Part shown: one piece after another, positions 1,085 through 39,222 of the stretch
Layout: every line of letters starts with the position of its first letter
How positions within the stretch are numbered: position 1 is the stretch's first letter
NCBI GenBank assembly: GCA_003255025.1
Contig: QANY01009387.1
Span: 310,001 to 374,000 of the forward strand
Direction: 5' to 3'
Origin: Datisca glomerata
Lineage: Eukaryota > Streptophyta > Magnoliopsida > Cucurbitales > Datiscaceae
Length of the DNA: 64,000 nucleotides
The notes under the pieces: model-generated
The model's database searches: none
Seen by the model: the letters and a program-made list of their open reading frames with translations, nothing else
Told to the model about the DNA's origin: nothing
Made by a program: the position numbers and the translations under genes

Positions 1085-1971
1085 TTAATTTGTGCCTAGA
1101 TTCAGCATCCTTTTGAAACAAAATACATGAATCCTCCTTGAGCTGACACTTTTCAAGAGCCTATATAAAAAAGTCATATAATCTATGCAAATGATACGGT
1201 CTAGCACGACAAGTTGGGCAAATCTGTAAATCGTCTTGAGATCCCGTGACATATCAACAGTCGAGACATTTTTCATAAATTTCTTCTTCTTCATCGATTT
1301 CTCCTAGATATACAAAAAAACATTTCATGCACAGTCCTTACAACTTACACATAACTAACATTAAATTATATATATTAAAGTATTACCATTTTTCTATTAA
1401 TTGGATGCTCAGGCCAAGCCACGTAGGATCCAACAACTTATCCTACAGTCAACAGTTCATTACCAACTGGAGTAGGTAGGGGTGCGTCAATTATTATGGC
1501 CGAATCAATAGAGACGCACATTCCCTTCTCCAACGGGGACTCCATCAATGCTTGCATCGGGTCCATTGAGTCAATTATCAGACCATGTGCAACAATACAC
1601 AAACAATTTACATAATTTTCCCTAAAGTAATCTAACACGTCCTTAATATATGTGCGCGTATTTAAAAAGAAACTTAATAATTAAACTATACATTTTCAAA
1701 AAAAATCATGGGGATAGGCATCACATCCTTCTGTTTGGAGCAACTTGCCTTACCTGATGGAGGTGTCTCTTTCTAAGTACTTTTAAATTTCTCTTCCAAC
1801 TCTTTGTATTTTTCTTTCTACATCAGTTTATCCTCATTCGTCTCCCTCAAATTTTTTCATATTCGATCTTAGAATTTTTTTTAAGAAGTTGAAAGTATGA
1901 TGTTGGATTAATAAAACTTCTACACCTCTGACTCTGCCTCCATGCGCAGGAGTGCCCAGAGCCAAGGTAAG
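1085..1971 (-). pseudogene. CACTA (En/Spm-like) transposon ORF remnant, Transposase_24/DUF8039 type
   Basis: Broken ORF of a plant CACTA transposon, read on the minus strand. Starting at the high-coordinate edge, the translation gives LALGTPAHGGRVRGV (about 1915-1971), the glycine/arginine block typical of the plant Transposase_24 family. A charged coiled-coil stretch follows (about 1780-1850, around KEKYKELEEKFKST) and then a segment at about 1390-1640 matching the DUF8039 pattern (NCLCIVAHGLI, APLPTPVGNELLTVG, GSYVAWPEHPINRKM). A glutamine codon after LLTVG has become TAA, and other stops and a frameshift separate the blocks. A further fragment at 1085-1294 (DLKTIYRFAQLVV) may be the next domain. 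The N-terminal part is missing because the LTR of element A begins at 1972. The family is confident from motif order; the exact limits are not. Confidence 0.72.
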
Positions 1972-3223
1972 TGTTTAGGAACTAAGGGGGTGTGACCGTG
2001 ACATCATGTGAGTGGCGATAAATGAAAAGTATAGCCTATGAACGTGAAGGTTGAAATCTGACAGGGTGAAGGATGAGCACTTTGAGCCAACCTATGGAAG
2101 GTGACAAAATGCTATTGGGAGTAGAAATTTAGAGAGATTTCTCTAAGTCTAATAAGTGAAAATATGAAGCTAAAGCCAAAAAAATTCCTTTTACAATCAA
2201 AGAAAATACCTCTATTTATAGAGAAGCTACCATGTGGGGTCCGCTCTAATTAATCCATTGACTAATTGGCAATGGACCCTATTGAGGTGTCAATGTCCAG
2301 TCATTGCTTATTATAACAATAACCACGTGGGCTAGGGTATTTATGGGGAGGAATCTCATGTACGATACAATTTGTATTGCGCCATGTGTCACGTACATTG
2401 ATATTGAATTTAGGAAGGAAGAACACAAAGAGTACCCCACATTGACAAGATGGGCGATGTTTATCTGGGACCCCTCTCGAGAGGTGTCCTAAAAACTGAA
2501 TCCCTTCCCGTGATTGGGAGGATGGCACATTCACGACCCTAAAAAAGGTCATACTAGTGAGGGGATATCCCTTCCAGTACAGCTAACCTTATCCAAATCC
2601 TATCAGACCACAACCCCTAAGATATGTTCCCAAACAAGAGACTCACTTAAGTCTTTGCCACTTGACTTAGTGGTTACAAGGATATGAATGATTACATAGA
2701 AATAATAAATAATACAATAAACACTTTGTGTCCATCGATCAGTGATGTGGATTCGATAATGATGTTGAAAAGTCAAAGATGACACGTAGCAGTAATACAT
2801 AGGAGCGACATGTACCACATCAAGGAGTCGAAGTCATAATGGTCAACCATCTTATACATTTATCCCTGTACAAGTTTGATGTAGAATATGGAACTTGTAC
2901 ACAATTTTTTCATACAACCGTTGACTGTAGCAAAAATAATGGAACTGCAATCTATTTGTATCTTTGTAATTTCCCTCGCCATGAAGGATATTTTGTTTTC
3001 TCCATCATGTATTGCAATTAAGCCCCCATTTTGTATTTTATTGTAATATTCTTGCATTGTTCAAACTGTCAATTTTGTCCATGATGTAATCTTAGAACTT
3101 CTTGAATTTTACACAACTACTATAAGGATGCAATATAAGTGATATGTGTCTTCTCAATATAAGATTGTACATTATAGATTCGTTAGAGATACAATCCCTC
3201 TGTCTCCAATAATCATTATTACA
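1972..3223 (-). repeat. 3' LTR of element A
   Basis: In element direction it starts TGTAATAATG at 3223, directly after a purine-rich tract, and ends CCTAAACA at 1972, giving the TG...CA ends expected of an LTR (1252 bp). Its last 860 bp or so align by eye to the LTR at 26755-27617 and its last 270 bp to 14791-15070. Short ORFs inside it on both strands are non-coding shadows. Only the left flank (CACTA ORF) is undisturbed target DNA. Confidence 0.8.
2209..2222 (-). promoter_or_regulatory. LTR promoter TATA box (element A 3' LTR)
   Basis: On the minus strand the sequence reads CTCTATAAATAGAGG, a textbook plant TATA element about 240 bp before the LTR end. The LTR of element B has AATAAATAGAGG at the same relative place (27354-27365). 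The 5' LTR of A is cut off right at this point. Confidence 0.6.
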
Positions 3224-3237
3224 TCCCACTCCTCTCT
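3224..3237 (-). other. Polypurine tract of element A
   Basis: On the minus strand this reads AGAGAGGAGTGGGA immediately before the TG of the 3' LTR. This is where plus-strand DNA synthesis is primed in LTR retrotransposons. It fixes the 3' LTR start at 3223 and shows that the PMD gene (3.5-7.6 kb) lies inside the element, between pol and the 3' LTR. Confidence 0.7.
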
Positions 3238-3479
3238 AAAATATGTCTACTTTCATGGGAAATGAGCCAAGGAACAAAACTCATTAGGTCCTAATGAACT
3301 AGGCCTTTTTTCGGCAAAATTCTATCATTAAGCCTTCAAATATGCGTTTTTCCTATTTTAGGAAAGATTTGTTTCATCCATAACTTTTGATAGAAAATTC
3401 ATATGATCGAACCATCAATTCCGCTGCGATCTAGACATCCGGTAGTCTATCCCCACGTCTTCAGTATAAAACTTGCATT

Positions 3480-3785
3480 TTGTTTTGAAAAAATACTCAT
3501 ATTTCACAGAGTACTGAATATCAGAAGATCACGTCATGAAAACCTGTAGTTTTTTGGAAACAATATCTATTTTCAGAATCTCCAATCTTTTGGCAATGTT
3601 TCCCTTTTTGATAAATTCAGTCTTTTGGAAACCTGCCAAACTATCAACCTGTCCCTTTGCAATAAATTTGGTAATGGGAAACCTGCCAAATATCCTATCA
3701 TTCTCCCCCCATATAAAAAGCACATGTGATGAGTAGAGTTTTTCATCTCACATCATTCAGAAGAATCACCAATGTTGGGTAAGGT
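3480..3785 (+). promoter_or_regulatory. Putative promoter and 5' UTR of the antisense PMD gene (element A)
   Basis: The stretch at 3540-3700 holds several imperfect copies of a motif around TTTTGGAAACCTG spaced about 36-60 bp apart. Then come ATATAAAAAG (TATA-like, 3711-3720) and a likely short 5' UTR exon ending at AAG|GTAAAA near 3786. The same order of repeats, a weaker TATA-like site and the same splice donor occur in element B (38790-39060, minus). An ATG at 3772 in A is not conserved in B, so I treat this exon as untranslated. The next exon starts after CTCCTTTTTAG at 4196. Confidence 0.45.
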
Positions 3786-4217
3786 AAAATTTCTTCTTCA
3801 TCATCCCTTTGTCATCTTGTCCAATATTTTATGTCATCAATGATATATATATTTAACCTGCCACTGTCATAGATTACCATCGTACAAGTGAAGCTCTGTT
3901 GGGGATCAATATCAACCGTTTAGGTGATTAGTCATTGTACAACAAAAATAACATTGTAAGAATGTGATGAAGCATCCGTTGCCCGGAGTATACAATAGTA
4001 TTGGCACAACTTCGGACGCCATTACATGAGACATGCAGCGGTGTCGAATGCCATTGCTGGAATATGCAAAGGCATCCACGCCTTTGCAAGTGGAAAATGA
4101 TTGCCACACCTTTACAATTGCAAAGGCTTAATATTTTCATTTTTTTATTTTTTTTGTAAATATATATTACTAGAATTTAACTTTTCTCCTTTTTAGGGCT
4201 GAATCTTGTTGAATCTC

Positions 4218-7200
4218 ATGGAAAACTTGCAAACCATTTTTACTGCTCCAAAATCTAACATGCCACCACTTGTTCCAAATAAACCTTAGAATGCCATGAA
4301 AGATGATGCTCTCCAAGTAATTCATGATATGGAAAAGACAACAAAAGAAAACACTTTTGTAGACTATGTATCATTACTTGAGCAAGAAACTAGAAACGTG
4401 GAATACATATTTGCAGACTCAATTCCCCTTTTTAGGCATGCACGAGGTGATTTTCTCATATCTCCAATTTTTATATGCAGTCACAGTAAGGCAGCGACCG
4501 GATGGCGTGAATGGGCAAACTATATTTTTTCAGTCCCTGAGTATGTTTCAGTTTTAAAGAAAACGCTCATATTTGAGGCGCTGATGGTCAGTTCACAACT
4601 TAGTATTCTTCGTGATCCTTCAACAATACAAACTTTGTTATTGCGTTGGAGTAGACAATCACGTACTTTCATCACTGCTTAGGGTGAATTTATACCTGCT
4701 CTCGAGGACGTATACTTTTTATTGCGCCTTACTTTCTTCGACAATCATAATGTTACAACGACTAAGCTCGATCCAGATGTAAAACTCTTGGTGGACATGT
4801 TACATGGTGGTCGTCCAAATCTAATAAGAAAATGTCAACAGGAAATGATATAAGTAAAAGAGCAAACTTTTCAGGATGGCTATGTTATTTCTCCAACGAC
4901 TTCAATGCGTCCAACAATGAAAGAGGAGAGCAGCATGGATCTCATCAAAGCTTAGACTTTGAAGATAAGAAAGTGGAATTAGTTGCTTTTATTGCATTAT
5001 GGTTGTCACGACACATTTTTCAAGTTAATACACCACATTTTTCTACCTGACACTAATCTGGCCACCAATATGAATACACGAGTATTCATCATCTCATTAG
5101 GAAGACCTGATGCAATAGTGGTTATATTATAGTTGTGCAACAATCATTTGTATTACCTCCTTGATCGAATCCACTATGACTTAGAGCGATCCCTGGGACG
5201 TTATGAGATTGCAACCTTTGTCGATAATGCATTCTTACAGATGTTTTGTGGGAGCATTACCTTTGGTGTGTGTCAGCAAGGTTCAAGATCTCACCCTTTC
5301 CAGAGATTGATTATACACATAGAGCATGGTCATGGAGCTCTGTAATAACTCCTAAAGCAGTCTACTTCTCAATGAGTATTGATAGATTGGGATACTTCAA
5401 ATCTCGTCCATACATATCAGAACTTTCTGGTTACATGTTGAAGAATCAGTGGCCTGCGTTTAATAAAGACATTTATCTTGGAATAGACGAGCAAGTAATG
5501 TCGTTTCAGTGGGAGGAACAACTCATGATATCCATTCTTACACCTTCAACACTTCATATCATAATCGAGCATGAAAAAGAGAAAGATGATAACTTTTTCT
5601 ACAGTACACGTTATCAATGCAACATGGTTGCTCATAAATTCAGTTTTGATAAAGGATTTCCACGAACAAGGGAAGCCAAGTTGGGTTTTCCGACAACATC
5701 CGCATTATCAAACTATACTTCGATCATCTCGCGCTCCTGCATTTTCTAGAGGCATGAAAAGTTATTGGAGAACCTTAGTAGGGAAATGGCGGTCTTTCAT
5801 TGACTCGGACTCTAGAACTCCAGTAGAAGTAATAATTTATAAGAATGATTTAACATTGCATCCTCCCACTAAAGAAGCATGAAAGTCATGAAAAAGAGGA
5901 GCCACTGAAGTTATATCAATGAAGCCTCGCATTAAAGCATCTCCCAACGACAAAGGTAAAGGAATATCCAAGGTTCATGTTACACATCCCCGCACCAAAG
6001 CAAAGTCTAAATCTAAGATTGATGGCATAACAATTTGTGAGCCTGTTGATACTTGTGAGACACATCTTTCAAGTACTATCAGTCCAAGATTTGGAGAAGT
6101 GGTTGAGGGTTTTAATGTAAGTTAGATAATTAAATTATCATGTAGCTTAGTTGAATGGCGCATTTTACAATAACATTTTCACTTTTGTTATGTGTGTTTT
6201 CTCAGGATTCACCACATTCTCAAAGTTGATCGGTGGTACTAACAAACATCATGGACAAGGACTTGAGCAAATCTCTATTCAAGTAGGCGATACTTCTACT
6301 ACAATGTCACCTCGTCCTAGGAGGATTGTATCACAGGTTAGTATTTTAATAACAAATATCATTCAACGTCACTCTATATTATGTTGTGTAGTAGCTTTTT
6401 ATGTTCTCCCTTTTTTCATTTAGGATCCAAACATAGAGAAGGTTCTTCAGCTTGAAATACTTAGCATATCCCCTTCATCCCTTAGACAAGATCAAATTAT
6501 TGAACATGTAAAAGATACACGTGATGAAGCAACACAAAAGATGTCGTCTGCTCGCTGTGGTGTAAGTTTCTTAAAAAAAACTATTCATATATTATTATTT
6601 ATGAACATATCAATGATATATGCTGCATGACTCTTCTGGGACAATGACTACAGAAACAACAATGGTAATCAATATTGAAGCATCTTGTCATGCTTCTATA
6701 GACGCTTGAATGTTGGATGAGTAAGCTCACCCAGTGATGAACCTAACGGTCATGGCAACACTCCATGATTCATCCATGGGCTTCTTATTCCCTAGGATAA
6801 TCTAGATGACCTTAATGATGTGTTGGATTCAGTACCTCTGATAGTGGACATCTTCAATTCTACTACTAGAGTACCATCGCCCTCTCATCGTAGTCAAGGC
6901 AAAGTATTGACAAGAGTCCAAATCCAAATTACGAGTGATGTTCATGAAGATGTAAATTATGTTTCTGGCTATGACATTCATTGTTCTTTCCAAGAGGATA
7001 TATCTCAATCCCAGACACTCATGCAAGATGAATCAGATGGTGACACTTCTGAAATAGACAATGATCATTATTTTTGGCATGATGTAGATAAGTTTAAGCT
7101 ACAAATTTCTGATGAGTTGCTTAAATTTGAAGACATGTCTGTTGATAAAGATCTTCACAGTTACCTTGTGAAAATTGAAGAAGCATATCCTCAGACAGGA

Positions 7201-7592
7201 TTGAAGCACGTGCATGGGTCTAGTTGGGGTGTGCATCCACGTTAGGCGAGCTCTTATACATGATAGATCGCTTCACCATTGAAAATAATAAAATAGAGCC
7301 ATTAGAGTTGTCTGTGTGAAAGTGTTTGAAAGCCCAAAAGATTGAACTAAGTTGGTTAAGGCCTTTCATTCGTGATTGTAGACGATTTCATAAATAGCTC
7401 TTACTGATAGAAAGTCTTAATGCTCTTCGACAACAACGTCAGTACCATGTTGCAGTCATAAAGGAGTCTTCTCAACGTATTCAATCTATTGATAAAGGAA
7501 TAAAAAAACATCAATCACTTGCATTAATTACAGCTATTATTGATCGTAATCCATCTGAAAGGATTACCGGAGATCCATTCACATCACTTTAA
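4218..7592 (+). pseudogene. Plant mobile domain (PMD, aminotransferase-like) gene, antisense cargo of element A
   Basis: Decayed multi-exon gene read opposite to its retrotransposon. The start ATG (4218) begins MENLQTIFTAPKS. The first part matches the PMD core: RWSRQSRTFIT, GEF.P.LEDVYFLLRL near 4640-4740, LHGGR near 4805, then VELVAFIALWLSRHIFQ near 4975-5025, the EhxAFLxxWLSRxxF signature of PMD proteins. Further on come a WEHY...RFKISPFP segment, an MSFQWEEQL block and NMVAHKFSFDKGFPRTR (about 5620-5675), comparable to the YxPhRVARQFGxDQ region. A basic tail (about 5920-6020) could be a nuclear signal. Likely introns are 6115-6206, 6338-6424 and 6561 to about 6636. The C-terminal exon is acidic (near 7020-7060) and ends ITGDPFTSL-stop. 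Defects: TGG to TAG stops at 4287 and 4680, a frameshift near 4820, a 95-bp inversion at 5053-5147 and a deletion near 5710. PMD proteins occur as host silencing factors (MAIN/MAIL family) and in transposons; the function of this copy is unknown. Confidence 0.8.
5053..5147. other. Micro-inversion inside the PMD gene of element A
   Basis: This roughly 95-bp segment reads on the plus strand almost as 37399-37495 also reads on the plus strand, although the rest of the two PMD genes lie on opposite strands. In B the segment, in gene direction, encodes GLPNEMMNTRVFAL and leads into LAPIFLDNLYYLFD, the expected PMD order. So the inversion occurred in A and removed part of the following sequence. 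Confidence 0.7.
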
Positions 7593-7919
7593 TTCATATG
7601 TTTTTTGCTTTATGTTGAATCTGCTTTGATGTTATTATATTTTTAACCATGTAGTTGGACATCTTTTATGCTTTCATCAACTAGTCTAATTACACATCTC
7701 TTTTTTATATGCATCTTCTCCTCTCCTTTTAAGATAGAGAAAGTAATAACATTAAAGAATAACATCTAGTAATGGCATCAAGTAATAACACATGATAGCA
7801 TGAAGGCATATATAGTGTGGTAGCATCATGTCATAATATGTGATAACGTCAAAGCCATAATACTGAATGATAATATTACATATCATATCAGCATACAAGC
7901 ATATTTTAAGATTAAAAAA

Positions 7920-8560
7920 ATATCCAGTCCAAACCTATACCTCATGATAATTTGTCATTACCACGGGCATGCTTGGCAAAGTAAAATACTCATTCTAAGT
8001 GATTGTGGCGGACAACTTAGAGATGAAAAAAGTTCAATCCCAGCCTACAACTCATGATATTATGTCGTTGCCATTGGCATACTAGGCGAAGTGAAATAAT
8101 CATTCTAAGTGACCTACGACATGCAACTTAGAGATGAGAAATGTCCAGTCCCAACCTACACCTCATGATAATTTATCATTACCACAGGCGTACATGGCGA
8201 AGTTAAATACTAATCCAAGTGACATACGACAAGAAACTTTGAGATGAGAAATGTCCAGTCCCAACCTACACCTCATGATAATTTGTCATTACCACGGGCG
8301 TACCTAACGAAGTGAAATATTCATTCCAAGTGACCTATACTAGGCAACTTAGAGATGAGAGACGTCCAATCCCAGCATACACCTCATGATAATTTGTCAT
8401 TACCACGGACATGCTTGGCGAAGTGAAATATTCATTCCAAATGACTTGTACCAGGCAACTTAGAGATGAGAAACGTCTAGTCACAGCATACACCGCATGA
8501 TAGTTTTTCACTACCATGGGTATATCTGGTGAAGTGACAAACACAATGCTAAACAATCAA
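7920..8560 (-). repeat. 110-111-bp tandem repeat array in the 3' region of element A
   Basis: The marker CTCATGAT recurs at 7941, 8051, 8162, 8272, 8383 and (as CGCATGAT) 8494, giving a 110-111 bp period and about six diverged copies. Each copy also carries AATTTGTCATTACCAC and CAACTTAGAGATGA. The reverse complement of the same unit makes the array at 34020-34600 in element B. It sits between integrase and the antisense gene. Tandem repeats in this place are common in Tat-lineage elements. The 330 bp between the array and the PMD stop codon is AT-rich and also shared with B. Confidence 0.9.
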
Positions 8561-8789
8561 TGACAAATATGTTTAGTGTTGCTTAATCATAAACATAATT
8601 TTTCATAAATCGAACAAAATTTCTGAAAAAATATTCTTTCATTTTATTAGGAGAGTGTTCTAAGAACTTTTAATGTAATTTTCATTCATCTAGAACAACT
8701 TCATTATAAGTGAACAAACTAAATAGAATTCCTCTAACTACGTTTGCAACAACAACAAAAGTCTTCATAAATGATTCTCTCTTAACGAA

Positions 8790-10330
8790 TGATACTTTTT
8801 GATAAATTTAAAGTTTATTAGGTGAAGACAAGGGTTGATGAGTCATTGGATTGGCCAAATGACAATATCTGCTCTCAAAGATGAAGACATTTTATAAGGC
8901 CCTTCCTATTTGGGCATAAATTTCTGAGCATGCACACCCCGCATGATATGATCAGACGCCTTTAATACCAGGTCTCATACACTGAATGTTAGAGGTCTTA
9001 CTATTTTTTCATATGCCTTCCCCATGTGTTCCTGATACATTTGAATATTTTCTCTTGTCTTATCTCTTCTTTCACCCATCGTCTTTAAGTCACCAAGTCG
9101 TGTAGAGTGCTCGACATTTGCCAAGGATGATAACCTTGCTGATGGTATAGTTACCTCTACTGAGATAACTGCTTCAAATCTGTATACTAGTGCGAAGGGG
9201 GTCGCTTATGTTGGTGATCACTTTGAAGTTTGATAGGCCCATAATCCAAGCGATAAGAGCTCATACCAAGTATTTTGTGCATCGTGGTTCATTTCGACTA
9301 AGTACCCAAAGCAAAGACTTGTTAGTAGCTTCAGCTTGACCATTACCCTTCGAGTAATAAGGTGTGGACCTGTCATGGCGAATATTATATGCTTCGAACA
9401 ACTGAGCTACAACCTTGCTTGTAAATGCAGTGTCATTGTCTGAGATGATACGTCTTGGTATATCAAAGCGACAAAATATGTATTCCTTGATGAAATTGTA
9501 CATTTGTTCCCCTATACCTTTCTTCAATGGTATAGCCTCTACCCATGTGGTGTAACATTCTGTAACCGTTAAGATCCATATGTTTTCTCTTGAAGATGGA
9601 GATATCGAACCAATGAAATCCAATGCCCAAGTATGAAAAGGCCATGGGACTTCAGTTGGATGTAAGGGCACTGATGTTGCACGAATGACATTTCCCAAAG
9701 TCTGATAGGCATTGAATTTTTGGGAAAATTCTAATGTATCTGCCTCCATTGTTGATTAGTAATTACCAATCCATAGAGATTCTTCATACAAACGTTTGTC
9801 GCCTTGGTGCTCTCCACATGCTCTGTTATGCACCATTGATACTTTTCTTGAAAAGTTCACCATTGATGAGAAAGAAAAGCGAGCTTCTCATTCGTACAGT
9901 AGCAGCATATGTCACATCTATAGGAAATATACGTCTTTCCCATATGTAATGTAAGTTTGCCTCCAATCTATAAAAACTTCCACTAAATTAATCCTTTAGA
10001 TCGAGGATCAAATGACATTTTGCACAATTCTTCTGTAGGCTCGTAGCGTTCGTACTTATACTTGGCCAATAGAATCTCATTCTCGGCAAACGTCAATGTA
10101 AAAGTGGTCCATCAATAGAACCAAAATCAACATGAAGGCGAGTAAGATGATGATGACCTTCTTCAATGTTTATACAACGTGATAGCACTCCATCCGAACA
10201 TCTAAAGAAAAAAATTTCGTTCAATGTCATGAAATGTTTCAGCTCTTTATTGAAAGTTGTATCTCCCTTAGATACTTACTCCATAATATCGCTTCTCCAA
10301 TCCTAATGTGATTATTCAATAACTCATTCG
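8790..10330 (-). pseudogene. Integrase region of element A pol
   Basis: Minus-strand translation gives a Ty3/gypsy integrase core: WPFHTWALDFIGSISPSSR near 9630, IISDNDTAFTSKVVAQLF near 9420 and NGQAEATNKSLL near 9320. These carry the first D, the second D and the E of the catalytic DDE triad, all present. The N-terminal zinc-binding part lies at about 9800-10330 and is badly broken. A C-terminal part follows to about 8790 with stops. The integrase would insert the cDNA copy of the element. As a pol domain it should be translated with RT and RNase H, which this copy cannot do because of stops and frameshifts. Confidence 0.82.
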
Positions 10331-10379
10331 AAAATTATAGTTGCAGATTTAACTGCTATCACAACGCTAGGAATAGGCT

Positions 10380-10830
10380 CAGTGAGTGGAAGCTTCGAAG
10401 CAAGCATAGCTAAGGCATCAACGTGGCAATTGTTAGATCTCAAAATGTGCTCAAAATACTAAACAGTCAAAAGCTTCACTTATTTTCTGAACTACACGAC
10501 GGTATTGGGCTAGAGCAGGTACTTTAATAGTAAAATCTCCTTTCACTTGGCTGATGATCAAATTGGAATCCCCATTGATTTTGAGAATGTTAGCACCCTT
10601 CTCTTTGGCATAACGCAATCCCAATAAAAGAGCTTCATACTCTACCTCATTGTTCGTATATGAGAATGTTAATTTATATGCAATTGAAAAAATATTACCA
10701 AGAGGATCTTCCAAAATAAGTCTGGTTCCACCGCTAGAATGAGTAGATGATCCATCAAATATAAGAGCCCATGACGCATAATCGCAAGCATTGACTTCTT
10801 ACAACTCATCGGGTATAGCCTCATTGATAG
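10380..10830 (-). pseudogene. Archaeal-type RNase H (aRNH) of element A
   Basis: The minus-strand ORF includes GNIFSIAYKLTFSYTNNEVEYEALLL..., then GANILKINGDSNLIISQVKGDF and, after a frame break, an NNCHVDALAMLAS stretch. These match the second RNase H that sits between the standard RNase H and the integrase in Tat-lineage elements, with the NNExEYEAL and xGDSxLIxxQV blocks. Upstream, about 10715-10780 reads as the SSGG/FDGSS start. This domain is the main lineage marker for element A. Confidence 0.8.
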
Positions 10831-11476
10831 GTTCTGGTTCCCCACTTGGAATCTGAGCCAATAAATCTGCTAAAGCTCGACTCTTCTGTGCTTTTGGAGT
10901 AGTTGGACTTATATCAAATTCACTCAATAACATTGTTCATCAAGTAAGCCTCCCATTTAGTGCGGGTCTGGATAAAAGAAAACAAATTGGATTAGACTTT
11001 GTCATCTTGTAATGACGAAACTTCTATGTAGCAAATATCAATGCTAAACAATACTTCTCATGGGATGAATATCACAACTCTGTTCCACATAAAACTCTGC
11101 TTAAATAATGGATCGGTCGTTCGACCCCTTCTCGTTCTTGTGCCAGCAAAGCTGCTATGGACTTGACAGTCGAAGTAATATAGAGAAACAAAGAAAAATC
11201 ATTACGTGGGGGAACCATGGTATTTGAACATAAGAATATGTGCTTTATAGCATCATATTTGCGTTGATGCTCATCTGTCCAGAAGAAATTACAATCTTGT
11301 TTCAGTAGTGGCTGTAAACCACTTACAGATTCAGCAAGGGCAGGAATAGGTATGAAACGACGTACATACGACACTTTTTCCATGAAGGCCTTTAACTCCT
11401 TTATTGAACGAGGAGGCGACATATCTCTAATGGCTTTTAGCTTTGATTGATCAATAACTATTCCTCGCCTATCCAC
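10830..11476 (-). pseudogene. Connection and RNase H domain of element A pol
   Basis: The ORF starts DRRGIVIDQSKLKAI and continues SIKELKAFMEKVSYVRRFIP, the RT thumb/connection region, then FFWTDEHQRKYDAI and LFLYITSTVKSIAALLAQE...ERPIHYLSR, the retroviral-type RNase H start. It stops at 11072 and the remainder (SNPICFLLSRPALNG..., SRALADLLAQ) continues out of frame to about 10830. Its role is to degrade the RNA strand during cDNA synthesis. The copy is inactive by frame breaks. Confidence 0.82.
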
Positions 11477-12230
11477 ACAAAAGCCTAAGCCTACAAACTT
11501 TCCCTAGGACACACCAAAAGCACATTTCAACAGGTTCATCTTCAACTTAGAAAATCTGCATCTCTAAAAAACACGTCTCAAATGCCGTAAATGTTGTTCG
11601 GCTTTTTAGACTTTACCACCAGATCATCCACGTAATCTTCGACATAGTCGTGAATCATGTCATGAAAAATGGCCGTTATTGCACGGTGTTCGGAAGGTCA
11701 TTTTCTCAATGTCCCTAATTACCATCTTGATCTGATTGTATCCATTAAACCCATCCATGAATAAGAACATCCCATGCTCTACTGTGGCATCTACTAGGCC
11801 ATCCACGTTAGGCAAAGGAAAATCATCCTTAGGGCATGCTTTGTTTAAATCCCTAAAATAAACACAACATCGAATTTGACCATTCTTCTTCTTCATAGGC
11901 ACGATGTTTGCTAACCACGCATGATGTTTAATGGGTTTGATAAATCCCACATCAACAAGTTTCTAGATTCCCACCTTAATTTGAAGTTTAACATCGAGAC
12001 AAAAATTTTACGGTGGTTGCTGATTGGTGCGTAGCTCTCAAAAACTCCCAACCTATATATTATTAGAAGGGGATCCAATGCTGGCATATTAGTATAAGGC
12101 CATCCGAATATGTCTTCAAATTCTCTTACTAACCTCAATAACGTTTCTCTTTGTTTATTCGTTAGACTCTTAGCCAAGAAACTATATTGTTGACTGTTCC
12201 ATCTTCAAGGTGTACTTCTTCTAATTCATC
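11477..12230 (-). pseudogene. Reverse transcriptase region of element A pol
   Basis: Minus-strand blocks in order: ILKIFEDIFGWPYTNMP-like entry (about 12060-12150), MGFIKPIKHHAWLANIVPMKKKNGQIR split near 11950-11880, FRDLNKACPKDDFPLPNVD near 11840 and FLFMDGFNGYNQIKM near 11750. After the FRTP block a stretch present in B (FYYVVMPFKLKNVGVTYQR) is missing, an internal deletion of about 75-80 bp around 11683. YVEDYVDDLVVKS then follows near 11620-11650, so the catalytic YVDD is preserved. Tat-lineage by similarity of order and by its neighbours. Confidence 0.85.
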
Positions 12231-12397
12231 CTGTGAAGGTAAATGATTTTGGACGGAAGGCTGCTCTGGTAGCTCATAATTACATAAATACCATTTGACA
12301 TGCCATGTAATTTTGCAAATACTTCATCCATCATATAATCTTTCACTTTCTTTTCATCACTAGAGGGATCAAGCTGTGCAATTGACCCCGCGCACCA

Positions 12398-13010
12398 TCA
12401 AAAGCCATAGGCCTTCTTCCCATTTGGTAGTTTGACATGAGTAACTAGCTCCATCCTTACTTCCATAATTGTCTTGTCTCCACTATTTTCCCATTTCGGT
12501 AAAGTGATTGCTGTTATTTTCCTTCGTGTAGTTGTCCGTGCTACTGCCAGATTATCAAACAACACTGCTTCAGCCAAATGTGTTTCTCTTTCATCAAATG
12601 GTGCTTTTCTAGCTGCCACAGTGATAACTCTTCCTTTCCACCATGCTTTCAAACATTGATGTAATGTTGATGGCACACATTCATGATCATGAATCCATGG
12701 TCGACCCAGGAATACGTGGTACACACTCCCGGCTTCGATTACATGAAAATAATTTGTAGTCTTCATCAGACCTAGTTGGAGTTCAACATTGACATATCCC
12801 AATGTTTTCATGGCTGAGGAAGAGAATCATGTTATCATGATTGACTGTCGCACAAGTCTCTTCCCAAGAAGTCTTGCCGCTTTGAATGCGGTAATTGACA
12901 CGACATTGATTCCTGATCCACTGTCTATCAATTCTCATTTTACTTGTACACCATTCATAGTGGCTTCAATATACAAAGGGTGATTATTCCCAGTTCGCTT
13001 GACACGACGA
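12398..13010 (-). pseudogene. Retropepsin (protease) region of element A
   Basis: Minus-strand reading: HPLYIEATMNGVQVK, a stop, then LIDSGSGINVVS (about 12890-12935), the D-S-G active-site motif of an aspartic protease. A later block, HVFLGRPWIHDHECVPSTLHQ (about 12640-12720), is the conserved LGRPWL-like segment that follows the flap in plant gypsy proteases. Two in-frame stops separate the parts. It would process Gag-Pol. The spacer from 12230 to 12398 still belongs to the pol polyprotein but carries no domain I recognise. Confidence 0.8.
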
Positions 13011-13129
13011 TCTGCATTAGTAAATGTGATTTCTCCTTCTTTATTTTGCCTTATTCTACCCAGTGACGGTTGTGCAAAGAAATAACGTGTCATCATTCTA
13101 CTCTTCTCAGAAACATCCACAATGTCTGA

Positions 13130-14755
13130 GTTACTTATCTCCTCGTTATGTCATCCAATTCAAGAATGTCAAAGAAATTCTTGCAAAGCCTTGTATTCAA
13201 TAGAGGTTCTATGAATCTGGCATTCCCCTTAGACAGATTATATTCGTTGTCATCTTCTTCTATCATTGTAACATAAGAAGTCGGCGCACCATCATATGCA
13301 TTGATCATGTTTACATTCGTATGCTAAGGAAAAGGTTTTCCTTCAACATGAGGGACATCTTCCGTGATAATTTCTCCTTTTTTAGTTTCTCATTGAATAT
13401 CATCCTCAAGGTCCTGAAGTTCTTAGTCAGGTGATTCAAATTCTGGTAGAAATGGCAATACTTAGGGGATTGCCTCCCATCCCTTGTAGGGAGTTTATCA
13501 ACCCAATGACGCTTTATTTCTTAATCTTTAACCCAAGTGTCAAGCAAGGCTTCAAATTTATCAATCGAACAAGGAAATAGTGGTAGCATATCTCTTCCTT
13601 CTCTATTCCTCTTGACTCATCGGTCATATGACTGTGTCATGGCTACTCGTGTCAGTTTCAATGTATGATCTCCACACTCATTTTTCTCAGTTAGCTTTTG
13701 CCGACTTACAAAAGTGTTTTTATGTTGCGTAGCCAGTTGAAGATGTACGAAAGAAGTAATATTCATATTCTCCAAGTGCACCCTATATTCGTTGATCATA
13801 CTACTGATGCACATATTTACCAATCCTTCTTCTTTGTAATCATCCGTACATTCTATGCCTTGTCCTTGAATCATTGCACATAAGTTATCAACTCTTCGTT
13901 GGGTCTTTGTGATTCTCTCCTGAGATCTAGGATGCTCACCCTTTCTCCTAACACAAGGAACTTGGCACAAAAGATGGAAGTCATTTGTGCCCACGTCAAA
14001 ATAGACCATGGTGCTAAGTTAGCATACCACATATAAGGTCGTTCGGAAAGGGATTTTGAAAACTCTCTCAGGTGCATTGAGTTATCAAAACCATATGGTC
14101 CCAGATCATCGATGAAAAGAGTTATATGCTCATTTGCGCAACTAGTCTTCCCATTGTATTTCCAAAATTTGGGAGGCACATATTCAACGGGTATAGCTGA
14201 GTTACAAATTCTACCAGATACGGTGGTCGAAAGTCTATTACTAAGTCATTCATGGATGCCCTCATCCTCTTTACCTGGAGCATCTCTTCTAAATACTCAT
14301 GAGTGATATATTGTGAAGTGTCATGTGACTCTTGCACTGGTGGTACTTCTATCGTAGCAATATGTGTGATGATGACCGGAGATGGGTTGAATAGATTGCC
14401 CACATTTTCACTATCAGCGGTTGTAGTAGGTCGCATAACACCATTGATAATGACAGGTGCAGGTGGAGCATGAATATTAGGAGTTGAGACTTGTGGTTTC
14501 TTTGAACTTATTCGTGGCTGGCCATTTTGCATCTGGTGCAACAGTGGAGGTGCATGTGTATCAGGAAGTAATGTTGTGAGGGTACTCAGCATTGTACGAA
14601 TCTCATTATTGGAAGCATGGAGATCTCTATTGGAAATTTATAACTCCCTGATAGCTACAGCCTGATCCATTTCTGATGCAGTAGCACATGTTGCATTGGC
14701 ATTAAGTTGCTCCAGTGTGATGTTGAGTTCATTCGTTCTAGATAGAGTTGAAGAT
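13130..14755 (-). pseudogene. gag region of element A
   Basis: The gag core is clear at 13871-14179: PPKFWKYNGKTSCANEHITLF, then SKSLSERPYMWYANLAPWSI and WAQMTSIFCAKF, the retrotransposon gag fold with its WY and F..K signature. The N-terminal part (14122-14592) is a low-complexity P/T-rich linker. A degenerate zinc-knuckle-like CHFYQNLNH occurs near 13435. Stops and frameshifts break it into at least four pieces. The start codon seen in B (ATG at 27663) is CTA here. Confidence 0.8.
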
Positions 14756-14769
14756 ACAGTGACAGATCG

Positions 14770-14790
14770 GTCCCAAGCAAAGTCGTCAAA
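14770..14790 (-). other. Primer-binding/leader motif of element A
   Basis: Directly after the LTR end (TTGAACA) the minus strand reads TTTGACGACTTTGCTTGGGA. Element B has TTCGGTGACTCCGTTGGGGA in the same place. It resembles the TGGCGACTC...GGGGA type leader of Tat-lineage elements. I did not match it to a particular tRNA. Confidence 0.5.
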
Positions 14791-15070
14791 TGTTCAAGAG
14801 CTAATGGGGTGTGACCGTGACATCACGTGAGTACAGTTACAAGTGTGATCTAGTCACAATAAATGACAAGTATATCCTGAGAACGTGGAGGTTGAAATCT
14901 GATAGGGTGAAAGACAAGCACTTTGAGCCAGTATATAAAAAGGTTATAAAATGCTATTGGGAGTAGAAATTCAGAGAGAATTCTATAAGTCTAATAAGTG
15001 GAAATATGAAGTCAAGACAAAAAAAGTCATTTACAATGAAAGAAAAAGCCTTTATTTACAGAGAAGCTAT
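14791..15070 (-). repeat. 5' LTR remnant of element A (U5 end only)
   Basis: About 280 bp aligning to the last part of the LTRs at 1972-3223 and 26755-27617: GGTCACACCCC near its end, CACTTTGAGCC, and AATGCTATTGGGAGTAGAAATT. Homology stops at 15070, just where the TATA box would begin. It is therefore a truncated 5' LTR. Confidence 0.8.
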
Positions 15071-15973
15071 CAAAAATTACAAGTGTGAAGTTACAAAAAT
15101 TCTCCATTGACCTTCATTCGATTTCAATATTTCATTACTGTAATTTTGAAATTATAACAGTAATATCCATTTTCATGATTTGTTCTTTATTATATATTTT
15201 CATGCATGTTTGTAAATTATATGTTACCAACTTAATCATAACTTAAATGTCACCGAAATTTTCTTACATGGATAACTCATTGGAAGAGTAAATAGTTTAG
15301 ATAAAGAAACACACATGAATGATATGCGTAAAGACTCTAAATTGATTACTTTGAATAGAGGGTTTTACAAACTTTAAAAGTGTGGTTACAAAACAGTTAA
15401 AGTGCACATGATCTTTTGATATTGCAGGGTCTTTTCAGGTTAACCTTTTCTATGTAATAATTATAGTTATGAATAAAGTGACTAATGTATGAATTTGAAA
15501 CCTTTTAGTTTGACACCCCTAAAAAAATTTGGCCTCTCCCCTGCGTGAGATTAACTGGGAGCGTAAAAACTAGTTCAGGCACCCATAATTAAGTGAATCC
15601 CAAAGAAAAGATGGCATGTGAAAACGTCGTACCACATGTAGTTAGATCATATGAAAGTAGTCCACATGAAGTTAGATCATATTAAACTATTTTTGCAAGT
15701 TAGCAAAAAGAAAGAGTGGGGAGGAGAGAAAAAATGTACAAGTTTCTCTCCACCACACTCTTTTTGTCTCTCATTCTTTATGTTCCACTACTAGCACTAT
15801 AAAATGACTATTATTAAAAAACAATTGCGTTAATTTCACCATAATATATTGGAGGAGAGATAAAGTACACTCAATACTGTAAAATGACCTTCAGATTACT
15901 GTGAAAGGCTATATTATGTACGTTGAACAAAATATCATTACTTCTATGAGCTCAAGGTATATATGGAACTAAG
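15071..15973. other. AT-rich spacer, nothing recognised
   Basis: No coding potential or known repeat seen. It begins at the broken end of element A and ends at the target duplication of the hAT-type element. Confidence 0.5.
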
Positions 15974-18004: not shown

Positions 18005-18183
18005 TATTATAAAAATGAGTTGATGATGGTGAAATTAAATGACAAATGCAAGCCTAGCAGTCCTCGTAGAGGCTAGTCTTTTATATTTTTAAGTAATTAT
18101 ATTAAATAGATAAGTTTTGAAAGTTAATTTAAAAAATAGTAAGATTTTTGTCAAATTATAAATAAATAGCATATTTTTAATGT

Positions 18184-18830
18184 CATATAATCAATCAACT
18201 GCTAATGAATTTGTAATTGATGATTTTAAGTTTCATTTTATAGATTTTATAATCAAATTTGATGAGATCCTTGTATTTAATTAAATATTTTAATATTTAT
18301 TATTTTTTAATTAAAATATTATTTTTTAATCAAATTATATGATAATCAATGATTGATTCTAGTTTCATTTTAGGTGATTCTGATAAGAAAATATTCTAGT
18401 TTCAATGATTGATTCTAATTCTGATAAGGTAAATAAAGAATTTTAGTACCACCTCATCAATCAACTGTTGACGAATTTATAGTTGACGATTTTATAATTC
18501 TATTTACAGATTTCATAATCAGTTTTGGTGGGGACTTTGCATTTTATTAAATATTCCGAAATTTATTATCTTTCAATTCAAACGTTATTTTTTATTTTTA
18601 TTTTTAATTAAATTAGATGATAATCAATTATTGATTCTAGTTTATTTTTTAGCTAATTCTGATAAGGAAATATTTTAGTTTCAATTATTGATTCTAATTC
18701 TGATAAGATAAATAATAGATTTTTAGTGCCACAACATCAATCAGCTGTTGACGAATTTATAGTTGACGATTTTAAACTTCGATTTACAGATTTTATAATT
18801 AGTTTTGGTGATGTTCAGATTTTATATAAC
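18184..18830. repeat. Roughly 275-bp tandem repeat, about 2.4 copies
   Basis: Copies begin near 18184, 18455 and 18735 with CATCAATCAACTGTTGACG or variants. Each carries GATTGATTCTAATTCTGATAAG and, in the first two, an AT-rich middle. The period is 270-280 bp. Identity between the second and third copies is visibly higher than with the first. No coding content. Confidence 0.8.
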
Positions 18831-26754: not shown

Positions 26755-27617
26755 TCTATATGATGGTTGACCGTTATGACTTCGACTCGCTGATGTGTCA
26801 CATGTCGCTCTTATGAACTACTGTCAAGTGTCAGCTTTGACTGTTCAACGTGATTCCTGGATCCATGTCAGTTACTGACCGACGACATAAAGTGCATATT
26901 GTATTATATATTCTTTCTATGTAATCATTTATATCCTTATAACCACTAAGTCAAGTGACAAAGACTTAAGTGAGCCTTTTGCCTTAGAACAATTCTGGAG
27001 GTTATAATCTGGTAGGATTTGGATGATGTTCACTATATTGGAAAGTGTATCCCTTCACCAGTATGACCTCTATAAGTGTTATGGATGTGCCAACTTCCCA
27101 TTTACGGGAAGTGATTTAGGTTTTAAGGCACCCCAACGTAATGACATTTATCTCGTCGATGTGGCACGCTCTCTGTGTTCTTCCTTCTCAGATTTATTGT
27201 CACTGCACGTGATGCATGGCGCAATGTGAAACGTAGCGTACATGAGAATCCTCCCTATAGATACCCTAACGAGCTTGTTGATGTGTCATTACGTTGTGTC
27301 CACTGCCAATTAATCAAATGATTAATTAGAGTGGACCTCACATGGAAGCTTCTCAATAAATAGAGGCATTCCCTTTCATTTAGAGGACTTTTACTTTTGC
27401 TTCATATTTTCTACTTACTAGACTTGAAGAATTCTCTCTTAATTCCTCATCCCAAGAGCATTTCGTCACCTCCATATGTTGGCACAAAGTGATCGTCATT
27501 CACCCTTCAGATCCTAACCTTCACGTTCACATGCTATATTTATCATTTATTATGACTAGATCATACCTGTAATTACACCCATGTGACATCATGGTCACAC
27601 CCCCTTAGCTCTGAACA
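26755..27617 (+). repeat. 5' LTR of element B (3' 860 bp)
   Basis: Aligns along its length to the 3' LTR of element A (reverse strand, about 1972-2850), from GATGGTTGACCGTTATGACTT to the terminal CTCTGAACA. It contains AATAAATAGAGG (27354-27365) as a TATA-like element. The first 390 bp or so present in the A LTR are absent. Confidence 0.75.
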
Positions 27618-27637
27618 TTCGGTGACTCCGTTGGGGA
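27618..27637 (+). other. Primer-binding/leader motif of element B
   Basis: TTCGGTGACTCCGTTGGGGA directly follows the LTR end and precedes gag by 25 bp. It corresponds to the motif at 14770-14790 in element A. Confidence 0.5.
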
Positions 27638-27662
27638 GTGATCTGTCACTGTAACTTCAACT

Positions 27663-29150
27663 ATGTCGGGAACAGATGAAATCACCACCACACTGGAGCA
27701 ACCTAATGTCGATGCAATAGCTGCTACTGCATCAAGAATGGATCATGCTGCAGCTATTAGAGAGTTGAAAATTTCCAACAATGATCTCTATGCTTCCAAT
27801 AATGAGATTCGGGCAATGTTGAGTACTTTCACAACATTACTCTAAGGGCCTTCCACACAAAATTCACATGCACCTCCACAATTGCACCTGACGCAAAACG
27901 GCCAGTCACGAATAAGCTCAGAGCAACCATAAGTCTCAACTCCTAATATTCACGCTCCACATGCACTTATCACTGTCAATGGTGTCTTGAGACCTATTAC
28001 AACCACCAACAATGAAAATGTAGACAATCCATCCAACCCTTCTCTTGTCGTCATCACACCCACTGTCATGATGCAAGTATCGCTAGTGTAAGAGACGCAG
28101 TGTGCTTCAAAATATATCCTTCATGAGTATTTGGAAAAGATGTTCTAGGTAGATAGGATGAGAACATCCATGAACGACTCAGTCATAGACTTTCAACCAC
28201 CGTATCTGGTAGAATTTGCAAGCCAACCATACCCCGTTGAATATGTGCCTCCCAGATTTCAGAAATACAATGGGAAGACTAGTTGTGCAAAAGAGCTTAT
28301 AACTCGATTCATTGACGGTTTAGGGCCATATGGTTATGATAACTCTATGCGCCTGAGGAAATTTTCTAAATCACTTATTGAACGGGCTCATACATGGTAT
28401 GATAACTTAGAACAAGGATCTACTTTGACATGGGCACAAATGACTTCCATCAATTGTGCAAAATTCTTTGTGTCAGGAGAAAATGTGAGCATCCTAGATC
28501 TCGAGAGAGAATCACAAGGACCCAATAAAGAGTTGACCGTTTATGTACAATGATTCAAGGACAAGGTGATGGAATGTACACATGATTACAAAGAAAATAG
28601 ATTGGTAAATATGTGCATCGGTGGTATGATCAACGAATATAAGGTGCATTTGGAGAAATCTAAATATTACTTCTTTCGCACGTCTTCAATTGGCTGCACA
28701 CTGTACAAGCACTTCTGTAATTAGGCAAAAGCTGACAGAGCGAAATGAGCGTGGTGACCGTACATGGAAGTTGATGTCACGCTATACATCATAAGTAGCC
28801 ATGGCACAGTCACATGGTCGAGGGGTAAGAAGGGAATACAGATGACAGATATATGCTACCACATTTCCCCTGTTCAATTGATAAAGTTGAAGCCTTACTT
28901 GACGCTTGGGTTAAAGATAAAGAAATCAAGCTTCCATGTGTTGTTACACTCCCTATAAGAGATGAGAGGCAATCCCCTAAGTATTGTCATTTCCACCAAA
29001 GTTTGAATCACCCGACTAAGGATTACAGGACTTTCAGGAGGATATTTGATGAGAAACTAGAAAAGGATAAATTATCACGGAAGATGTCGCTCTTGTTGAA
29101 GAATAACCTTTTCCTCAGCATGCTAAAGTAAACATGATCAGTGCATATGG
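27663..29150 (+). pseudogene. gag region of element B
   Basis: It starts ATG at 27663 (MSGTDEITTTLEQPN), placed just after the leader. The conserved core (28158-28553) contains KYNGKTSCAKELITRF, SLIERAHTWYDNLEQG and TWAQMTSINCAKFF, followed by a stop. A decayed zinc knuckle appears at about 28980-29030 (YCHFHQSLNHPTKDY, with Y where the last C is expected). In-frame stops and shifts occur at 27843, 28551 and later. Confidence 0.8.
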
Positions 29151-29439
29151 TGGTCCTTCATCTTCTTATGTAACAATGATAGAGGATGACAACGAAGAAA
29201 ATCCATCTGAGGGGAATGCCAAATTCATAGAATCTCTACTGAACACAAGGCTTTGCAAGAATTTTTTTTGATACTAATGAATTAGACGACATAGCAAGGT
29301 GATAAGTAACTCAGACATTGGTGGATGATTTTTAGCATAGTAGTATGAGGACGCACTATTTCTTTGTACAACTGCCACTGGGCAGAATAAGGCAAAACGA
29401 AGAAGGAACAATCACATTCACCAATGGAGACCATCGTGT

Positions 29440-30027
29440 CAAGAGAACTGGGCATAATCACCCTCTATATATCGAAGCTACTGTGATTGGTGTGCAAGTA
29501 AAATGAGCATTGATAGACAGTGGATCAGGAATCAATGCAATGTCAAATTCCATATTTAGAGCGGCATGGATTCTTGAGAAGAGACTTGTGCGACAGTCAA
29601 TCATGATAACAAGATTCTCTTCAGCAGCCGTAAAACATTGGGTTACGTCAATGTTGAACTCCAAGTGGGTCCGATGAAGACTATGAATTATTTTCATGTG
29701 ATTGAAGCTAAGACTATGTACCACATACTCCTAGGCTAGCCATGGATTCATGATCATGAATATGTGTCGTCAACATTACATCAATGTTTGAAAGCATGGT
29801 GGAAAGGAAGAGTTGTCACTGTGGCAGTTAGCAAAGCTCCATTTGATTTGGCTGAAGTAGTGATGTTTGATAATCTGGTAGTAGCAGGGACAACTGGACC
29901 AAGAAAAATCATAGCAATCACTTTAGAAAAATGGGAAAATAGTGGAGACAAGACAATTATGAAAACATGGACAAAGCTAGTTACTCCCGTCAAACTACTA
30001 AATGGAAAGAAAGCATATCGCTTATGA
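29440..30027 (+). pseudogene. Retropepsin region of element B
   Basis: HPLYIEATVIGVQVK, then a stop and LIDSGSGINAM (about 29507-29540), is the aspartic protease active site. YHILLG-like and HEYVSSTLHQCLKAWWKGR (29755-29820) correspond to the block after the flap. The downstream part to 30027 is a K/T-rich linker that matches element A. Confidence 0.75.
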
Positions 30028-31160
30028 TGGTGCGCGAGGCAACGCACACAGCTTGATCCCTCTAGTGACAAAAGGGAAGTGGAAGATTTTATGATGGAGG
30101 AAGCATTTGAAAAACTACATGGTCTATCAAATGGTATATATGTAATGAATTGTGAACTACTAGAGCATCCTTCGGTCAAGAATCCTTTACCGCCACAGGA
30201 TGAATCAGAAGAAGTCCAACTTGAAGATGGAACAGTCAACAAGCTAATCTTCTTGGCTAAGAGTCTAATGAATTAACAAAGGTAAGCATTACTAAGGTTG
30301 CTGAAAGAGTTTGAAGATGTATTCAGATGGTCTTATACTGATATGCTAAGGCTGGATCCCACCCTGGTAACACATAGATTGGGAGTTTCTAAGAGTTACA
30401 CGCCAATCAAACAGCCACCGTGAAATTTTCGTCCCGATGTTGAACTTAAAATTAAGGTAGAAATCTAGAAACTCATTGAAGTGGGATTTATCAAACCCAT
30501 CAAACATCTTATATGATTAGCGAACATTGTCCCCGTGAAGAAGAAGAATGATTAAATTCGATGTTGTGTTGATTTTAGAGATTTAAACAAAGCATGTCCT
30601 AAGGATGATTTTCCTTTATCCATGTAGATGCCCTGGTAGATGCCATAGCAAAGCATGAAATATTTTCATTCATGGATGGATTTAGTGGATACAATCAGAT
30701 CATGATGGCAATGGGGGATGCTGAGAAAATGGCCTTCCGAACACCGTTTAAGAATTTCTACTATGTTGTGATGCCATTTAAACTAAAGAATGTTGGGGTA
30801 ACCTATCAACGGGAAATGACGGCCATTTTTCATGATATGATACACGACTATGTTGAAGATTACGTAGATGCTCTGGTGGTAAAGTCTAAGAAAGTTGAAC
30901 ACAATTTAAGGCATTTGAGAAGTGTTTTTGAGAGATGCATGTTTTATAAGTTGAAGATAAACCCATTGAAATGTGCTTTTGGTGTGTCTTGGGAAACGTT
31001 CTCAGGCTTCTGTGTGCATAAGTGAGGAATAGATATTGACCAATCAAAGGTAAAAGCCATCATAGATATGCCACCTCTGCATTCAATAAAGGAATTAAAG
31101 GTCTTCATGGGAAAAGTGTCATATGTAAGTTGTTTCATAACTGCCCTTGACGAATCTTTG
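30028..31160 (+). pseudogene. Linker and reverse transcriptase of element B
   Basis: A linker ORF (30079-30276) leads into RT: DLNKACPKDDFPLS near 30580-30620, FMDGFSGYNQIMMAMGDAEKMAF (two pieces, 30672-30740) and FYYVVMPFKLKNVGVTYQ near 30755-30810. The catalytic motif reads YVDA (30861-30872) instead of YVDD, so the second aspartate is lost. The thumb and connection continue to 31160 with a stop at 31023. Confidence 0.85.
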
Positions 31161-31715
31161 AGTGATTTACAATCATTGCTGAAACAAGATTGTGATTTCT
31201 TCTAGACGGATGAACACCAACGTAAATATGATGCTATAAAGAATATATTCTTAGGTTCTACTACCATGGTACCCCCACGTAATGATTTACCCTTTTTACT
31301 TTACATTACATCGAATTCCAAGTCTATATGAGTTGTGTTGGCACAACAATGAGAAGAGGTAGAACGACCGGTCTATTATTTGAGTAGGGTTTTGTGTGGA
31401 GATGAGTTGAGATATTCACCCCATGAAAAACATTGTTTAGCACTGATTTTTGTCACATAGAAGTTTCACCATTACATGATGGGGAATAAAGTTCACTTGA
31501 CGATAAAATCTAATCCAATTCATTTTCTTTTATCCAGACCCACACTAAATGGGAAGCTTACTCAATGGACGATGTTATTGAGTGAATTCGATATAACTCC
31601 AATTACTCTAAAGGCGCAGAAGAGTCAAGCTTTGACAGATTTACTGGCTCAATTTCTTAGTGGGATACCAGAACCTATCAGTGAGGCCATACTCGATGAG
31701 TTACACGAAGTCAAT
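31161..31715 (+). pseudogene. RNase H domain of element B
   Basis: It covers the C.FF.TDEHQRKYDAIK block near 31195-31240, LLYITS near 31300, and the ORF from 31476 (VHLTIKSNPIHFLLSRPTLNG, SEFDITPITLKAQKSQALTD). Order and sequence match element A. Stops at 31204, 31329 and elsewhere. Confidence 0.8.
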
Positions 31716-32160: not shown

Positions 32161-32199
32161 ACTATGATTTCTGAATGAGGTATTGAGCAATCACTTCAA

Positions 32200-33860: not shown

Positions 33861-34019
33861 GTTCTGGACGACTAAAAGTTATAGTCAGAGTTCTTAGAAC
33901 ACTCTTCTAATGAAATGAAAGAGTGGTTATTTAAAAATTTTATTCGGTTTATGAAAAATTTGATTTACGACCAAACAAGACTAAACATATATGTCATAGA
34001 TTGTTTAGCATTGTGTTTG

Positions 34020-39070: not shown

Positions 39071-39222
39071 TACTAACGGCGTGGGGATAGATTACTAGAT
39101 GTCAAGATCGCAACGCCATTGAGGGTTCGATAATATGAGTATTCTATCAAAAGTTATGGATACAAAACTTTTTTAAAATGAAAAAAACATATATTTGAAG
39201 GGCTAAATGATATATGGGTGAT

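Follow-up and report, generated by a model that had tools for sequence, protein, structure and literature searches.

Structure of the element and of its antisense gene

The stretch analysed here (the window) comprises 64,000 nucleotides of Datisca glomerata, positions 310,001 to 374,000 of contig QANY01009387.1 (assembly GCA_003255025.1). A decayed Tat-lineage Ty3/gypsy retrotransposon, copy A, was identified on the minus strand at positions 1972–15072. Between its integrase and its 3′ long terminal repeat (LTR), copy A contains a multi-exon gene of the plant mobile domain (PMD) family, located on the plus strand at 3711–7592 and thus antisense to gag-pol.

The 3′ LTR (1972–3223, minus strand, 1252 bp) has TG/CA ends and adjoins a purine tract. 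At this border the minus strand reads AGAGAGGAGTGGGA and then TGTAATAATG at 3223, and the terminal CA of the LTR is at 1972. The polypurine tract (3224–3237, minus strand) has one T inside, and its junction with the LTR aligned in the sister stretch L049 with 82.6% identity over 138 columns. The direct-repeat partner at 14791–15072 (minus strand) is the inner remnant of the 5′ LTR. The two LTR pieces were 78% identical by BLAST over 284 columns with gaps; without gaps the identity was 83.2%, with a Kimura two-parameter (K2P) distance of 0.195 over 262 sites. This distance corresponds to about 7.5 million years if 1.3e-8 substitutions per site and year are assumed. Because the outer part of the 5′ LTR is gone, the target-site duplication of copy A is unreadable. 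A primer binding site is located at 14769–14789 (minus strand), and the corresponding site in copy B, the second copy in the window, reads GGTGACTCCGTTGGGGAG. Both may resemble tRNA-Arg; no tRNA gene was found in the 64-kb window.

All of the pol and gag pieces of copy A are on the minus strand. The integrase core rve (9261–9755), a second RNase H, RVT_3 (10451–10798), and the RNase H linked to reverse transcriptase, RT_RNaseH_2 (11072–11503), were above their Pfam cut-offs with 52.5, 46.2 and 40.0 bits (E 6.4e-14, 5.2e-12 and 4.1e-10), respectively. RVT_3, which we take to be the archaeal-type RNase H, lies between the other two. The reverse transcriptase piece RVT_1 (11660–11962) and the gag piece (13871–14245) reached 21.0 and 18.0 bits, below the cut-offs of 29.6 and 24.1, respectively. 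Sequence comparison revealed tandem repeats of about 110 bp, with no strand assigned, between the PMD gene and pol at 7918–8555. Tandem repeats were also seen at the same place in L049 (5259–6264) and downstream of the PMD gene in the sister stretch L052. The repeat unit of L052, which belongs to family II, appears to be about 60 bp judging from BLAST offsets, compared with about 110 bp in family I, the family of the window.

Exons, introns and domain match of the PMD gene

All parts of the PMD gene in copy A are on the plus strand. A TATA-like box was located upstream at 3711–3719; by eye it was TATA-like in 9 of 13 rows, copy A included, the other four copies having no BLAST cover at this place. 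The PMD exon is represented by a first half at 4197–5038, which carries stops and frameshifts, and a second half at 5151–6116. The 112 bp in between (5039–5150) cover the PMD-core intron and are inverted in copy A compared with copy B and L049. Tail exon a (6206–6336), tail exon b (6424–6561) and the last exon, which encodes the C-terminal tail (6629–7592), follow. PMD-like pieces were found at 4290–4682 and 5228–5749. The latter had at least 150 matches in its own genome and the tail piece 6796–7245 had 74, with the piece itself and copy B counted in both cases. The gene is broken in both copies of the window, in copy A by stops, frameshifts and the inversion.

No scanned single open reading frame (ORF) of copy A matched PF10536, the Pfam family of the PMD (curated cut-off 34.9 bits). 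The cut-off was passed by copy B at 37688–37969, in the equivalent of the first half of the PMD exon, and by L049 and the sister stretch L051, with 40.3, 35.1 and 35.4 bits, respectively. Pieces downstream of the PMD-core intron were below the cut-off in L051 (26.0 bits), L049 (16.1 bits) and L053 (15.0 bits), and the piece from L052 gave no match. An alignment by eye of the tails of families I and II was possible; the family I tail as a query found no match in L052 at E 1e-3. Weak tail matches were present near copies of other families, for example at C1234:21631 (E 4.6e-6). A search of a protein collection returned one relative among 243 candidates, from which we infer that this collection is poor in plant proteins. 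A search of PDB gave three matches, with E values from 0.27 to 1.4.

GT-AG introns were visible, and the gene model has five in total: one in the 5′ untranslated region (UTR), the PMD-core intron and three before the tail. By eye, the PMD-core intron is in phase 1 and the three tail introns are in phase 0. The donor GT of the 5′ UTR intron (3784–4196) was kept in all 12 spanning sister copies and its acceptor AG in 12 of 19. For intron 2 (6117–6205), intron 3 (6337–6423) and intron 4 (6562–6628), GT was kept in 17 of 21, 18 of 19 and 15 of 16 sister copies, and AG in 13 of 19, 12 of 16 and 9 of 16, respectively. The acceptor of intron 4 is AT in copy A, and its place was set by eye from L049; the first gene model had this last intron at 6562–6795, and its end was moved to 6628 after comparison with L049. 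Overall, donor GT was kept in 62 of 68 site-copy cases compared with 299 of 493 for other intronic GTs.

The PMD-core intron of copy B is located at 37454–37542 on the minus strand (CAAG/GTAATA ... CATTAG/GTCTTCC). Counted by eye in family I, GT is kept at this intron in 19 of 20 aligned copies, while three more have a gap and one has a one-base shift; AG is kept in 19 of 22, and one more has a gap. An intron at the same place and in phase 1, with both GT and AG, was seen by eye in five of five family II loci and three of three family III loci. These eight loci were 32–39% identical to the window PMD piece. The same PMD-core intron is thus shared by three element families, two of which have only about 30–41% protein identity to that of the window.

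Copy B and sister stretches

Copy B, of the same family, occupies about 26757–39230 of the window, with pol on the plus strand and the PMD gene on the minus strand. It is decayed, lies about 11.7 kb from copy A in the opposite orientation, and is 75–82% identical to copy A in long blocks. Copy B was above the Pfam cut-offs for RVT_1 (50.7 bits) and gag (28.6 bits), and no match to a 3′ LTR was found in it. Four 10-kb stretches of the same genome, L049, L050, L051 and L052, were fetched. L049 has the gene order of copy A with the junction of LTR and polypurine tract aligned, and in L051 and L052, from another family than that of the window, the strand of the PMD is opposite to that of pol.

An earlier reading of copy A from its letters, the sequence-only reading, had proposed these LTR limits, a Tat-type element, and an intron-containing gene of the PMD family antisense between integrase and 3′ LTR. 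The TG at 3223 beside the polypurine tract, the CA at 1972 and the 5′ partner bear out the limits, and the domains above cut-off agree with a Tat-type element. The gene order recurs in L049 and at the linked loci described below, the family membership follows from copy B, L049 and L051, though from no ORF of copy A, and the GT-AG introns were seen with their sites kept in sister copies. That reading would have fallen if relatives of the element lacked the gene or if the LTR border had been misplaced; the gene is present in sister copies, and the border aligns in L049. It had noticed neither the decay of both window copies nor the inversion of 5039–5150.

Linkage of PMD and integrase across the genome

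Protein searches of the own genome were used to locate further copies. The search with the PMD piece gave 651 candidates, of which the best 150 were scored, with at least 150 matches. The search with the integrase gave 7432 candidates, of which the best 150 were scored, with at least 151 matches; 150 were used. Among these 150 integrase matches listed, 38 had a PMD match within 15 kb, and in 36 of these it was antisense and on the 3′ side. Within 10 kb, there were 36 with a PMD match, 35 of them antisense and 3′, while random placement would give 0.66. When a match to either PMD or tail within 10 kb was counted, 42 of the 150 were linked and 40 of the 42 had the antisense 3′ arrangement.

The genome was also searched with PF10536, which gave 156 matches, and loci L001 to L018 were inspected. 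ORFs of L001, L002 and L005 as queries matched the PMD regions of the window, with E values from 2e-12 to 9e-5. L001 and L002 (G000:C873:2137370-2182172) have open, genic-looking PMD ORFs of 623 and 641 amino acids; they are on opposite strands about 43 kb apart, with a PMD fragment in between. At L012, L013 and L018 the PMD adjoins ORFs that we take to resemble the N-termini of Mutator-like element (MULE) transposases. A Pfam scan of the MULE-like ORF of L012 gave no match.

Selection on the PMD exon

Rates were compared among 24 family I copies, namely copy A, copy B, L049 and 21 sister loci out of the 29 from L020 to L048. L025, L028, L042, L046 and L048 were dropped for poor cover or because they belong to another family, and L044, L047 and L020 because they overlap L043, equal copy B and lie at the same place as L049, respectively. 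Terminal branches represent mostly the time after insertion, and internal branches the time of copying. Bootstraps were run with the topology held fixed.

Over the 573 codons of the PMD exon, internal branches gave 0.129, 0.121 and 0.284 at the first, second and third codon positions, and terminal branches 2.070, 1.995 and 1.611, respectively. The normalised ratio was 0.35 (0.25–0.50), and none of 200 bootstraps reached 1. For the whole gene (837 codons) the ratio was 0.42 (0.30–0.56), with none of 300 bootstraps reaching 1, and an earlier run with 770 codons and 60 bootstraps gave 0.43 (0.31–0.60). Intron columns of 22 copies gave 0.371 on internal and 2.345 on terminal branches, while the codon positions of the same 22 copies gave 0.128, 0.112 and 0.221 on internal branches. 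The rates show purifying selection on the PMD part during the period in which the elements copied themselves. Positions 1 and 2 were constrained on internal and not on terminal branches, and the PMD protein therefore mattered while the elements moved. The sequence-only reading had suggested a test for purifying selection in young intact copies; the constraint was found on the internal branches, and the 24 included no young copy. The pair of copies A and B alone was uninformative on selection, with a ratio of nonsynonymous to synonymous rates (Ka/Ks, NG86) of 0.56 over 838 codons.

Interpretation and alternative explanations

We conclude that copy A is probably an old, decayed element of the Tat lineage, Ogre-like, whose regular gene set includes the antisense PMD gene that lies between integrase and 3′ LTR. 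Several observations weigh against this reading. At two linked loci the PMD or tail match was on the strand of the integrase itself, and 108 of the 150 integrase matches listed had neither a PMD nor a tail match within 10 kb, so the gene need not be present in every element. These 108 do not mean that the gene is absent from elements, because the count was made only among the matches listed. At L050, a PMD piece (1847–3241) lies directly by LTR pieces of the window family while the pol queries found no match in the 10 kb; this looks like a rearranged fragment. The tail exons (264 codons, 18 copies) had a ratio of 0.80 (0.50–1.20), which was not significant, and 21 of 200 bootstraps reached 1 or more. 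Support was low at several nodes of the tree, and the copies studied include no young one, the shortest terminal branch being 0.059. Acceptor AG was kept in 46 of 70 cases (37 of 54 without intron 4) compared with 177 of 295 in the intron background, so the acceptor signal is weak. Transcription of the gene from its own promoter and its splicing are predicted from sequence.

The element PMD gene would be read from its own promoter, spliced as a host mRNA and translated. Introns in a sense-strand gene of a retrotransposon would be expected to disappear during copying. Since the PMD gene is complementary to the genomic RNA of the element, its introns would pass untouched into each new copy. The claim of the sequence-only reading that the introns survive for this reason fits the copies seen, and stays a logical inference. 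In the nucleus, the PMD protein may oppose or replace the host PMD proteins MAIN and MAIL1, as a counterpart that would weaken PMD-dependent silencing of the element; we put this forward tentatively, as something short of probable. It is unlikely that the introns themselves are part of a trick, in which antisense carriage would keep a multi-intron gene through reverse transcription, the mRNA would look host-like (splicing-coupled export, less small interfering RNA) and an anti-silencing PMD protein would be made while the element is silenced.

The PMD protein could instead serve the life cycle of the element itself (its transcription, entry into the nucleus or targeting of integration) rather than counter silencing, which is possible yet falls below an even chance. 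Antisense proteins of Grande and Retand have been discussed as nuclear or DNA-binding factors (Vicient and Casacuberta 2020; Vicient 2025, PMC11963269), and a C-terminal tail follows the PMD by eye in families I and II. However, the known role of cellular PMD proteins is in silencing of transposable elements and control of transcription (Ikeda 2017, PMC5418596; Nicolau 2020), which points to interference with silencing. An effect of the antisense transcript rather than the protein, such as a self-limiting or buffering RNA, has a parallel in the antisense RNAs that limit transposition of yeast Ty1 (2025 review), but is disfavoured by the codon-position constraint in the PMD exon and is highly improbable. 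This constraint shows, together with a PMD that can still be recognised across families at about 30–41% protein identity, that the protein itself was selected.

We also considered a neutral passenger, a PMD gene without a role for the element that derives from capture of a host gene or from a nested insertion. Between copies A and B, the three codon positions differ to almost the same extent (137/862, 149/856 and 153/858), as in a passenger, and both copies are broken. The constraint on internal branches of the 24 copies largely refutes a passenger, however, and position and orientation recur at the linked loci among the matches listed, which leaves it improbable. A recent capture of the genic-looking PMDs of L001 and L002 is likewise unlikely because the pieces share only 22–36% identity. 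Finally, the incomplete 5′ LTR of copy A and its unreadable target-site duplication would be compatible with a host PMD gene that stands beside a truncated element and merely seems internal. In both copy A and L049, the gene is flanked by integrase and by the 3′ LTR with its polypurine tract, and the same order was found at 40 of 42 linked loci among the matches listed; this explanation was rejected and its probability is negligible. The shared PMD-core intron and the selection on the PMD exon make two questions testable, namely the role of element PMD proteins with respect to the host PMD silencing pathway and the direction of PMD transfer, from element to genic copy or the reverse; for the latter, the PMD-core intron is a usable marker.

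Other features of the window

An ORF at 43921–44289 on the minus strand contains the motif LPDLNLP and is possibly a piece of a host gene; we take this motif to be EAR-like. Three imperfect AT-rich direct repeats, with a spacing of about 270–280 bp, were observed at 18171–18810.

Comparison with known systems

The PMD frames elsewhere in the genome (the genic-looking L001 and L002, L009, L010 and L012) share the PF10536 match with the element PMD. They differ in being open across the place of the PMD-core intron: their match to PF10536 is unbroken through profile position 181 at least, whereas the piece of L051 downstream of the intron enters the profile at about position 147. At E 1e-4, no match to the window pol or PMD pieces was found in the ten 10-kb stretches L009–L018.

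Tat elements with antisense extra genes, Gypsy elements with PMDs and the idea of counter-silencing have all been described in print. Only Gypsy elements encode the clades PMD-A1 and PMD-A2 (Ikeda et al. 2017, PMC5418596). The element PMD described here is also Gypsy-borne and, in comparison with the two genic-looking PMDs of the genome, distant from them in sequence. A 2021 review reports the proposal that PMDs encoded by transposable elements counter silencing. According to Neumann et al. (2019, PMC6317226), 57% of Ogre elements have extra ORFs (eORFs) with PMD (pfam10536). The suggestion of the sequence-only reading that a PMD cargo may be new was therefore abandoned, and the PMD is an old component of the lineage, since PMD genes in Ogre/Tat had been published; only the intron-bearing anatomy was not found described in the literature searched. 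The word 'intron' has no occurrence in the main text of Ikeda 2017 (PMC5418596), parts of a 2024 sunflower paper contain neither PMD nor intron, and the intron exceptions named in a 2025 review are Ogre of Medicago and EVADE. No description of introns in element PMD genes was found in the literature searched, the likeliest source being outside that search.

Tat elements are defined by a second, archaeal-type RNase H, which in Ogre and Retand lies between the RNase H linked to reverse transcriptase and the integrase (Neumann 2019, PMC6317226). Copy A has RVT_3 between RT_RNaseH_2 and rve and was filed as Tat, a placement by domain order, and as Ogre-like by its PMD gene. The eORF encodes PMD rather than TRP28, a trait of Ogre, as judged from PF10536 in copy B, L049 and L051; it supports Ogre without defining it, because PMD is present in 57% and not in all Ogre elements. 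The primer binding site of Ogre is antisense to tRNA-Arg (orchid paper 2022). Ogre/Tat elements with PMD eORFs share with copy A the Tat pol, the second RNase H in this position and the extra PMD gene. In the passages of Neumann 2019, both uses of 'intron' refer to the gag-pol intron and the orientation of the PMD eORF is not given, whereas the gene described here is antisense and has five introns. Retand elements with antisense TRP28 genes (Vicient 2025, PMC11963269) differ in the encoded protein, and the pieces scanned from copies A and B and the sister stretches gave no match to TRP28 (PF04195). What Retand and copy A have in common is the Tat lineage, a long stretch between pol and 3′ LTR, an antisense gene and tandem repeats.

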